Shown here: in pieces, positions 27,946-30,671 of the stretch
Layout of the letters: every line of letters starts with the position of its first letter
Position numbering within the stretch: the stretch's first letter is position 1
Origin: Lachnospiraceae bacterium
GTDB lineage: Bacteria > Bacillota > Clostridia > Lachnospirales > Lachnospiraceae
Direction of reading: 5' to 3'
Length of the DNA: 44,972 bases
NCBI GenBank assembly: GCA_024403255.1
Contig: JAKSSE010000006.1
Location: 1-44,972, forward strand
Position numbers and translations under genes: made by a program
Notes under the pieces: generated by a model
What the model saw: the letters and a program-made list of their open reading frames with translations, nothing else
Told to the model about the DNA's origin: nothing
Database searches by the model: none

Positions 27946-28010
27946 CATTTTGCCTCCATTTATTGTAAAATAACTTTTGTATTTATTTTGCATAAAAGGA
28001 GGCTAAAATG
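27946..28010 (+). promoter_or_regulatory. Long hairpin sequestering the ribosome site and AUG of the nhaC-type gene
   Basis: CATTTTGCCTCC (27946-27957) is complementary to GGAGGC-T-AAAATG (27998-28010) with one bulged T, covering both the Shine-Dalgarno and the start codon. Inside, TTTA/TAAA pairs and a 10-bp helix TGTAAAATAA (27964-27973)/TTATTTTGCA (27983-27992) close a nine-base loop. About 26 pairs in all. There is no U run, so it is not a terminator for this strand. Confidence 0.65.
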
Positions 28011-29531
28011 TTCGAAGGAACTTTCTTATCACTTCTGCCACCAATAATCGCTATTGTGCTGGCTCTTATCACCAAAGAGGTCTACTCTTCTTTATTTATT
28101 GGTATCCTCTGTGGAGGCCTTTTATATTCAGGTTTTTCTTTCTCTGGTACCGTAACCCACGTATTAAATGATGGTATTATCGCATCACTTGCAGATGCCT
28201 ACAACGTCGGAATTCTTATTTTCCTGGTTGTTCTCGGTTCAATGGTTATGCTCATGGACAGAGCCGGAGGTTCCGCCGCTTTTGGTCGCTGGGCTGCCAG
28301 CCACATCAAAACAAAATTCGGTGCAATGATGGCAACCATGGTACTCGGAATTCTCATCTTTATCGATGACTATTTCAACTGCCTTACTGTTGGGTCCGTA
28401 ATGAGACCTGTAACTGACAAGCACAAAATCCCAAGATCAAAGCTTGCATACTTAATCGACGCAACCGCTGCTCCAATCTGTATAATAGCCCCTGTTTCAT
28501 CCTGGGCTGCTGCGGTTTCAGGATTTGTTGAGGGTGCAAACGGACTTGAACTTTTCGTACGTGCAATCCCATACAACTTCTACGCGTTTCTTTCAATTGT
28601 CATGATCATCACTATTTCAAAGATGAATTTTGACTATGGCCCAATGGCTTTAAGCGACAGATCAGAGCCAAAAGAAGATAACATTACAGAAAAAAATATT
28701 CCACTTGCTGGAACTGCAAACCCTAACCCACCAGTTAGCGCCAAAGGCAAAGTTATACACCTTGTATTCCCAATCATTGTCCTTATCATTTGCTCGGTAA
28801 TCGGCCTTGTATATTCCGGTGGAATCTTTGAAGGTGCAAGCTTCATCCAGGCCTTCTCTGATGCAGATGCCTCAGTTGGTCTTTCAATTGGATCTCTCAT
28901 TGCACTTATAATTACAATCATCTTTTACCTTGCAACCAAGGTACTCAATTTCAATGAATGTATGAGTTCAATTCCTGAAGGCTTCAAAAGTATGGTACCT
29001 GCAATCTTAATCCTTACTTTTGCATGGTCTCTTAAAGCTATGACCGATTCACTTGGTGCAAGAGAATATGTTGCAGGCATCGTTGCAGGCTTCGCAGATA
29101 AGCCAGCAATTATGTCACTTCTTCCTGCAATCGTATTTATAATTGGTGCTCTCTTAGCATTCTCAACAGGAACCTCCTGGGGAACCTTCGGAGTATTAAT
29201 CCCAATCGTTGTAAACGTATTTGGTGGCAATCTTTCAAACGAGCTTATGATTATAGCAATCTCAGCTTGCATGGCTGGTGCAGTTTGTGGTGATCACTGC
29301 TCTCCAATCTCAGACACAACCATTATGGCTTCAGCTGGTGCCGAATGTGATCACATCGAACACGTCTCAACCCAGCTTCCATACGCACTTACCGTTGCAG
29401 GTGTTTCAGTAGTATGCTACATCTTCTCTGGTTTCATCAGAAACTGGATTGTATGCCTCCCACTCAGCATCGCAATCATGGTTGGCGCACTTGTTGTTCT
29501 TAAGCTGGTTTTAGGCAAAAAGCAAGCTTAA
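28008..29531 (+). CDS. NhaC-family Na+/H+ antiporter
   Basis: A 507-residue membrane transporter of the NhaC superfamily with about twelve hydrophobic helices. Characteristic segments are LPPIIAIVLALITKEVYSSLFIG, GILIFIDDYFNCLTVGSVMRPVTD, APICIIAPVSSWAAAVSGF and GDHCSPISDTTIMASAGA. It probably exchanges Na+ and H+, though some family members carry amino acids or organic acids. Translation may be controlled by a hairpin over the ribosome site. It lies 68 bases after the B6 transporter gene and is followed by a terminator hairpin. Confidence 0.9.
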   Translation: MFEGTFLSLLPPIIAIVLALITKEVYSSLFIGILCGGLLYSGFSFSGTVTHVLNDGIIASLADAYNVGILIFLVVLGSMVMLMDRAGGSAAFGRWAASHIKTKFGAMMATMVLGILIFIDDYFNCLTVGSVMRPVTDKHKIPRSKLAYLIDATAAPICIIAPVSSWAAAVSGFVEGANGLELFVRAIPYNFYAFLSIVMIITISKMNFDYGPMALSDRSEPKEDNITEKNIPLAGTANPNPPVSAKGKVIHLVFPIIVLIICSVIGLVYSGGIFEGASFIQAFSDADASVGLSIGSLIALIITIIFYLATKVLNFNECMSSIPEGFKSMVPAILILTFAWSLKAMTDSLGAREYVAGIVAGFADKPAIMSLLPAIVFIIGALLAFSTGTSWGTFGVLIPIVVNVFGGNLSNELMIIAISACMAGAVCGDHCSPISDTTIMASAGAECDHIEHVSTQLPYALTVAGVSVVCYIFSGFIRNWIVCLPLSIAIMVGALVVLKLVLGKKQA

Positions 29532-29571: not shown

Positions 29572-29665
29572 TTTTGGGTAACATATCCACAAAAATAGCT
29601 TAAGCTACCCAAAACAAAAATCGTTTGGGTAGCTTTTTTCATTACAATATGTTTGTTACCCAAAA
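29572..29665. repeat. 94-bp array 1: four 11-bp words, spacing 21-8-21
   Basis: TTTTGGGTAAC (29572-29582), GCTACCCAAAA (29604-29614), GTTTGGGTAGC (29623-29633) and GTTACCCAAAA (29655-29665) alternate in orientation, with 21, 8 and 21 bases between them. The outer pair is a perfect inverted repeat, and the inner pair forms the terminator hairpin. Confidence 0.85.
29604..29640 (+). terminator. Intrinsic terminator of the antiporter gene (inner pair of array 1)
   Basis: AGCTACCCAAA and TTTGGGTAGCT pair perfectly around a short A-rich loop and are followed by TTTTTTC on the plus strand, about 80 bases past the stop codon. Confidence 0.85.
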
Positions 29666-29737
29666 TTGTACGCAAATAAGGCATTACACGCACGGAATAT
29701 AACTTGAATGATAATTCAAAGTGCTACTTCTAGGATA

Positions 29738-29831
29738 TTTTGGGTAACAACGGCTAGAAAAAGTACATTGTTGCCCAAAACTGATTTCGATTGGGTAACA
29801 AACTCCAATTTCGCGTGCATGCTACCCAAAA
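29738..29831. repeat. 94-bp array 2: same four-word layout, spacing 21-8-21
   Basis: TTTTGGGTAAC (29738-29748), GTTGCCCAAAA (29770-29780), GATTGGGTAAC (29789-29799) and GCTACCCAAAA (29821-29831). The geometry is identical to array 1, base for base, while the spacer sequences differ. The inner pair is not followed by a T run, so it is not a terminator. Confidence 0.85.
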
Positions 29832-29864: not shown

Positions 29865-29893
29865 TTGACATTGCAAAATGTAAAGTATATATT
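29865..29893 (+). promoter_or_regulatory. Promoter of the membrane protein/XRE pair
   Basis: Consensus TTGACA (29865-29870), 17-base spacer, TATATT (29888-29893). An inverted repeat ATGTAA-N8-TTACAT (29878-29897) overlaps the -10, and a ninth TACCCAAA word (29907-29917) lies just after the predicted start. The XRE protein may bind here. Confidence 0.75.
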
Positions 29894-29945
29894 ACATATT
29901 GTAAAGGATACCCAAACAATTGTAATTTATATTTGGAGGAAGAAA

Positions 29946-30473
29946 ATGAATGATTATACTTTAGGATATATTTGTGGAATACTTGCCGTTTTGTTAATTG
30001 CAGTAGTAATAAGACTTATTTTCAGAAAGAAAAAAATGGACTGCAAAGAAGGCTTTGATGAAAGACAGCTTTTTGAAAGAGGAAATGCTTATAAGCTTGG
30101 CTTCACAACTTTTATGATTGAGTTCGCAATTTATATACTTTATACACTTGGTGATTTTGGCTATGAAATTCCAGTAGAGCCTGCGGCTTTAGCTTCTATT
30201 GCGCTCTTCATTCCTGTTACTATTTTCTGTGTATACGCTGTAAGACATGACGCTTTTATGGGATACAATGCAACGGGAAAAAGTTTTTATTGGCTTTACA
30301 TTTTAGCTTTTGTATTAAATATTATCCCTGGAATCATGTCTATCTGCGATGGAAGTATTATAGAAAACGGAGTGCTTACACTTCACAGTACAAACCTTAT
30401 TGTAGCAATAATGTTTGGTGGAATCCTTCTTGCTTTATATGTGAAAAATAAAGAAGATAAGGAGGAAGAATAG
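29946..30473 (+). CDS. Four-helix membrane protein paired with an XRE regulator
   Basis: A 175-residue membrane protein with helices at about 6-26, 55-76, 83-103 and 120-140, plus a last one near 148-168. Between the first and second helices is a cytoplasmic segment KKMDCKEGFDERQLFERGNAYK, typical of the DUF2178/DUF3796-like proteins that accompany short XRE regulators in Firmicutes. GGAGGA precedes the ATG at 29946; the longer open frame from 29865 has no ribosome site. Function is unknown; the family pairing suggests a small regulated envelope module. Confidence 0.75.
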   Translation: MNDYTLGYICGILAVLLIAVVIRLIFRKKKMDCKEGFDERQLFERGNAYKLGFTTFMIEFAIYILYTLGDFGYEIPVEPAALASIALFIPVTIFCVYAVRHDAFMGYNATGKSFYWLYILAFVLNIIPGIMSICDGSIIENGVLTLHSTNLIVAIMFGGILLALYVKNKEDKEEE

Positions 30474-30476
30474 CCT

Positions 30477-30671
30477 GTGAAAAATCTAAGGATTAAATCG
30501 GCACGTGCCGCAAAAGATATGTCTCAGGAGGCTCTTGCTCAGGCAGTGGGAGTCTCACGTCAGACAATAAATGCCATAGAAAAGGGTGACTATAATCCGA
30601 CAATTAAGCTTTGCCTTGCAATTTGCAGAGCATTAGATAAAACCCTTGATGACCTCTTCTGGGAAGAATAA
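30477..30671 (+). CDS. Short XRE-family helix-turn-helix regulator
   Basis: A 64-residue Cro/CI-type DNA-binding protein consisting only of the HTH domain: MSQEALAQAVGVSRQTINAIEKGDYNPTIKLC is the five-helix core, and it ends TLDDLFWEE, typical of the YozG/YgzD group. It starts with GTG at 30477, with GGAGGA about ten bases upstream inside the end of the membrane protein gene, only three bases past that gene's stop. It probably autoregulates the pair through the promoter at 29865-29893. Confidence 0.9.
   Translation: MKNLRIKSARAAKDMSQEALAQAVGVSRQTINAIEKGDYNPTIKLCLAICRALDKTLDDLFWEE

Follow-up and report, generated by a model that had tools for sequence, protein, structure and literature searches.

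Intergenic arrays of inverted 11-bp words at set spacing in a Lachnospiraceae genome, and the same layout with other words in three related genera

Introduction

The described systems closest to the arrays reported here are BIMEs and REPINs. IHF and gyrase are among the proteins that bind BIMEs (PMC2817692). REPINs have conserved ends and a spacer constrained by length, and compensatory changes are common in them (PMC3116915). The main text of a REP survey makes no mention of Firmicutes or clostridia (PMC3733652). Here we describe arrays in which an 11-bp word alternates with its inverse, in a Lachnospiraceae genome and in the window (the whole stretch of DNA analyzed, 44,972 nucleotides of contig JAKSSE010000006.1, assembly GCA_024403255.1). 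A literature search of partial coverage returned no earlier description of such arrays. The first-pass annotation of this DNA had gone further, knowing of no described element with this layout; that view does not hold, as BIMEs and REPINs already show regularly spaced alternating words and length-constrained spacers (PMC2817692, PMC3116915, PMC3733652).

Like BIMEs, the arrays are extragenic and dispersed, with regular spacing, alternating orientation and species-specific sequence (PMC2817692). Like REPINs, they have inverted conserved ends, a spacer fixed in length but not in sequence and, in some genomes, tandem clusters (PMC3116915). However, each REP is an imperfect palindrome of ~20-40 nt, whereas no inverted repeat occurs within the 11-bp word; REPs usually number >100 copies per genome, against 15 full units in 1.50 Mb here; and the companion RAYT gene of REPs is repeat-flanked, whereas none flanked by words was found here (G000, the present genome, is 61% complete). 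Unlike BIMEs, the arrays lack covariation and have periods near whole helical turns, and of the compensatory changes and RAYT neighbors that mark REPINs neither was found, bar one matched change in array 1. GTAG- and CGTC-tagged REPs offer a further likeness: GTAG occurs in the word of one relative (GGTAGCC in G138), and GGGTAGC occurs in some words of the present genome. In those REPs, however, the tag lies outside the stem (PMC3733652), whereas here it lies inside the inverted pair, and the word of another relative, G290, has no tag. The family is BIME/REPIN-like in layout and is not filed as either, because an internal palindrome, compensatory changes and a word-flanked RAYT gene were all tested for, with negative outcome.

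Results

Two arrays in the window

Direct reading of the window places four words in array 1 (TTTTGGGTAAC at 29572, GCTACCCAAAA at 29604, GTTTGGGTAGC at 29623 and GTTACCCAAAA at 29655) and four in array 2 (TTTTGGGTAAC at 29738, GTTGCCCAAAA at 29770, GATTGGGTAAC at 29789 and GCTACCCAAAA at 29821). It confirms what the first-pass annotation had described, namely eight 11-bp words of alternating orientation with spacers of 21, 8 and 21 bp in both arrays. Each array word differs from TTTTGGGTAAC at 0-2 positions; with at most one mismatch allowed, the window holds nine word matches, six of them inside the arrays, where 0.93 would be expected by chance; all of 100 shuffles gave fewer than nine. A covariance model, R1, was built from 14 units of this genome, a unit being a word, 21 bp and an inverted word. 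The units in the window are as follows:

29572..29614, + strand: array 1 unit a, TTTTGGGTAAC-21-GCTACCCAAAA; 44.7 bits with the R1 model, of which it is itself a seed
29623..29665, + strand: array 1 unit b, GTTTGGGTAGC-21-GTTACCCAAAA; direct reading, R1 seed
29738..29780, + strand: array 2 unit a, TTTTGGGTAAC-21-GTTGCCCAAAA; direct reading, R1 seed
29789..29831, + strand: array 2 unit b, GATTGGGTAAC-21-GCTACCCAAAA; direct reading, R1 seed

An extra degenerate word (GATACCCAAAC) lies at 29907-29917, outside the array geometry, between a promoter-like site and the downstream operon. A CRISPR array was excluded: the words alternate in orientation and spacers recur within a locus, whereas CRISPR arrays have direct repeats and unique spacers.

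Neighbors and a terminator-like hairpin

The surroundings of the arrays comprise the following features:

28008..29531, + strand: Na+/H+ antiporter family protein, the upstream neighbor (PF03553, 8e-52)
29602..29640, + strand: terminator-like hairpin formed by the two inner words of array 1 (words 2 and 3), then a T run (-16.4 kcal/mol, z -5.6)
29865..29893, + strand: TTGACA-17-TATATT, a promoter-like site separating array 2 from the downstream operon (11/12, a consensus match only)
29865..30473, + strand: open frame downstream, listed with a TTG start and 202 aa, true start probably further in; no Pfam match
30477..30671, + strand: XRE/HTH_3 regulator, 64 aa (PF01381, 1e-18)

In array 1 alone the words form a nested, well matched arrangement, words 1 and 4 pairing at 11 of 11 positions and words 2 and 3 at 10 of 11. 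The hairpin of words 2 and 3 lies ~70 bp past the antiporter stop, in the same direction, and has the sequence features of an intrinsic terminator, a GC-containing stem and a T run 3' of a co-directional gene. The earlier remark that an inner pair doubles as a terminator was thus right for 29602-29635, which TTTTTT follows. Because the T run follows nested, well matched words, the inner pair of array 1 is probably the terminator of the antiporter gene. The consensus terminator scan allows loops of 3-8 only and so does not list this hairpin. The adjacent XRE protein, suggested earlier for a gel-shift test, is not implicated; the other arrays of this genome adjoin unrelated genes.

The word family within this genome

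The two window arrays are members of a lineage-specific dispersed intergenic repeat family. The assembly is incomplete (1.50 Mb, 61% complete, with the window as contig 57); it contains 15 full units at four intergenic loci, all of which a search with the R1 model returned, with no other strong match. Outside the window these are:

C9, 5792-6021: word array of four units, between a long-palindrome-bearing stretch and hrcA
C79, 272-623: word array of six units, with genes for tRNA-Pro and a DinB/ImpB-type polymerase nearby
C24, 29-71: one full unit, at a contig end

Of the 15 units, 14 have an inner spacer of 21 bp and one has 22 bp. Neighboring units are joined by linkers of 19 bp on C9 and C79 (18 once) and of 8 bp in the window, giving unit periods of 62 and 51 bp, respectively. 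As a general pattern, then, 21-8-21 fails: it recurs exactly at no other locus, and the other multi-unit loci of this genome read 21-19-21. Tandem units at one locus are almost identical to each other, and a higher-order period spans two of them, measuring 124 bp on C79 and 147 bp in the relative G138. Among the flanking genes scanned, no family is shared.

Another dispersed repeat was also seen. It is a long palindrome (GCACTAGGGATG...ATATAGGCTAAAGAC...GTCTTAGCATATATT...CATCCCTAGTGC) with a structured insert of variable length, and it sits immediately before two word arrays (C9 and C79). Its copies are:

L009:1580-1790, long-palindrome repeat
L014:190-262, long-palindrome repeat
L037:1487-1685, long-palindrome repeat
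L038:1303-1457, long-palindrome repeat, inner arms only

Three further elements were noted. A CIRCE-like TTAGCACTC-N9-GAGTGCTAA lies upstream of hrcA (L009:2151-2177), with a word array ~130 bp before it; a TwoAYGGAY RNA (Rfam RF01731) scores above its gathering score at L012:1625-1782; and a cobalamin-riboswitch-like stretch (AGCCAGGAGACCTGCC), recognized by eye, lies upstream of a lipoprotein-like gene (L037:1700-1890). Rfam searches of the window and five array or word loci returned one tRNA and one TwoAYGGAY RNA only.

Outside this genome, the exact unit pattern was found in none of ~200 other genomes of the family. Among ~85,000 species genomes it gave three single matches in unrelated organisms, each with no second unit nearby, which we regard as chance. 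Plasmids and phages gave no match and viral contigs one lone unit without an array, while the R1 model, run on 31 genomes, gave beyond G000 weak matches only (best E 0.05).

The same layout with other words

An alternating-word detector was run on sampled stretches of relatives and followed by genome-wide word searches; its null, one Markov-resampled set of 1.69 Mb, gave two clusters, neither alternating. Three further genera of the family proved to have arrays of this layout, dispersed between genes and built from other words; as sampling of the other genera was partial, at roughly 20-400 kb each, it does not establish absence elsewhere. The words are:

G138, TTTTGGTAGCC: arrays at C2, C10, C18 and C19; spacer 36 in 22 of 23 units, linker 23-24, period ~73.7
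G290, TTACATATAA: arrays at four loci, all with spacer 19-20; linker 56 at C70 and 45-46 at the other three, periods 84.7 and 95.5
G267, AGCAATGA: three loci; spacer 22, period 73

G138 has a fifth array, at C33, with irregular spacing, and one of its arrays opens with an exceptional 81-bp step. All 16 arrays across the four genera lie between neighboring genes, some in G138 enclosing short open frames. Other 8-mer clusters from the sampled relatives (G152, G121, G311 and a second G267 cluster), irregular or two-copy ones among them, were set aside. An order-level relative carries a TGATACAA/TTGTATCA array with GGGGACGGTTCTTTTTG between copies (L044:2360-2500), possibly a different kind of repeat.

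Phasing and constraint

Each of the periods 51, 62, 73, 73.7, 84.7 and 95.5 is within 1.5 bp of a whole number of 10.5-bp turns (5, 6, 7, 7, 8 and 9, respectively). Under a uniform null this phasing has p 0.0004 with the turn fixed at 10.5, 0.0024 with the turn fitted between 10.2 and 10.8, and 0.001 with one value per genus, figures to be read with the facts that the phasing idea arose from the first five periods, that the period classes were the analyst's choice, and that the families are four independent ones only. The G267 period of 73 was obtained after the idea had been recorded. An 11-bp step plus an offset fits the same periods still better (R 0.98 at 11.0), and the TTGTATCA array of the order-level relative, with a period near 34, falls outside the 10.5-bp phasing. 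In G138, the 81-bp step and the irregularly spaced array are exceptions to it as well.

Among the four window units the words are 87% identical, whereas the spacers reach 38% at best orientation against 35% when shuffled. This bears out the earlier suggestion that geometry rather than sequence is conserved: spacer length is held, spacer sequence is free, and the arrangement recurs with other words in other genera. One C79 spacer, when reverse-complemented, does agree with a window spacer (29583-29603) at 14 of 15 positions. Its local score was reached by 4 of 40,000 shuffles, the pair being one of ~100 compared, and the match suggests common descent for that window unit at least. Between loci of G138, two have spacers 75% alike in opposite orientation and the others are weakly similar; the fixed length therefore reflects a lack of indels in addition to any fresh assembly. 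That words and spacer length are spared while the remaining sequence drifts suggests that the words are recognized at a defined distance from each other.

Discussion

The reading that we tentatively prefer, with somewhat less than even confidence, is that each word is a half-site at which an oligomeric protein binds duplex DNA, with a spacing that would place the units on one face of the helix. The dispersal of the units, the sparing of words and spacer length, the lack of covariation and the phasing speak for it. A binding array of this sort was among the proposals of the first-pass annotation, and it is still the best single reading. Against it stand the flanking genes scanned, which have no common family, the better fit of an 11-bp step, the exceptions to the phasing and the strong folding of array 1 RNA.

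Alternatively, the inverted pairs may act as hairpins in RNA or single-stranded DNA, whether as REPIN-like elements spread by a Y1 (tyrosine) transposase or as mRNA-stabilizing or terminating structures. We consider this a serious rival, if somewhat unlikely. The layout is very close to that of REPINs, with their conserved ends and length-constrained spacer (PMC3116915), and RNA of array 1 folds to -31.5 kcal/mol (z -6.8). Because inverted words give folding by construction, however, such folding does not separate duplex from hairpin. Covariation within word pairs was absent (87.7% paired against 87.4% in shuffles) and in word flanks was not above permutation (p 0.23 and 0.97), whereas compensatory changes are common in REPINs (PMC3116915); the one matched change is from A-T to G-C in the inner, terminator-like pair of array 1. 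A stem extension in G138 was suggestive by eye and not significant against permutation. Y1 transposase genes are present in G000, G138 and G290, and RAYT-like genes that score below the cut-off in G290 and G267, but none of these was found flanked by words, and the RAYT model had no match in G138 or in G000 (61% complete). Moreover, a hairpin would not need an exact loop length.

It is quite unlikely, in our estimation, that the arrays are non-functional minisatellites, in which the words would be the terminal inverted repeats of a tiny mobile element and slippage would drive growth and decay without selection. The near-identity of tandem units at each locus and the two-unit periods on C79 and in G138 fit such an origin, as does the joining of the C9 and C79 arrays to the same long palindromic repeat. 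Neutral decay, however, would not spare words or spacer length while spacers randomize, and a non-systematic look found neither a target duplication nor an element boundary. A recombination or partition site, as also floated earlier, in which an 8-bp core would be framed by inverted 11-bp arms, as for a tyrosine recombinase or a parS-like cluster, is very improbable: the window inner pair does read 11-8-11, roughly as long as the core site of a recombinase, but other loci read 11-19-11, and no recombinase or partition gene lies among the array-flanking genes examined.

If the words are half-sites for a DNA-binding protein, the unit would be an inverted 11-bp word pair at fixed distance, repeated head to tail. 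Spacing that sets the units on one helix face would allow the protein to bind cooperatively and to wrap or bridge DNA between genes; protein and site changing together would give each genus its own word; and the inner words of array 1 would additionally have been co-opted as a transcription terminator. The full proposal, that of a fast-changing architectural DNA-binding protein on intergenic inverted-word arrays at whole helical turns, with word and turn number specific to the genus, is speculative, and we think it rather unlikely.

Dispersed palindromic repeats of the REP/BIME type have been described mostly outside this lineage, and the reason for their retention is disputed. Here several genera share one layout, with unrelated or loosely similar words that are retained as the spacers drift, and with periods near whole turns. 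This makes the choice between duplex binding and hairpin directly testable.
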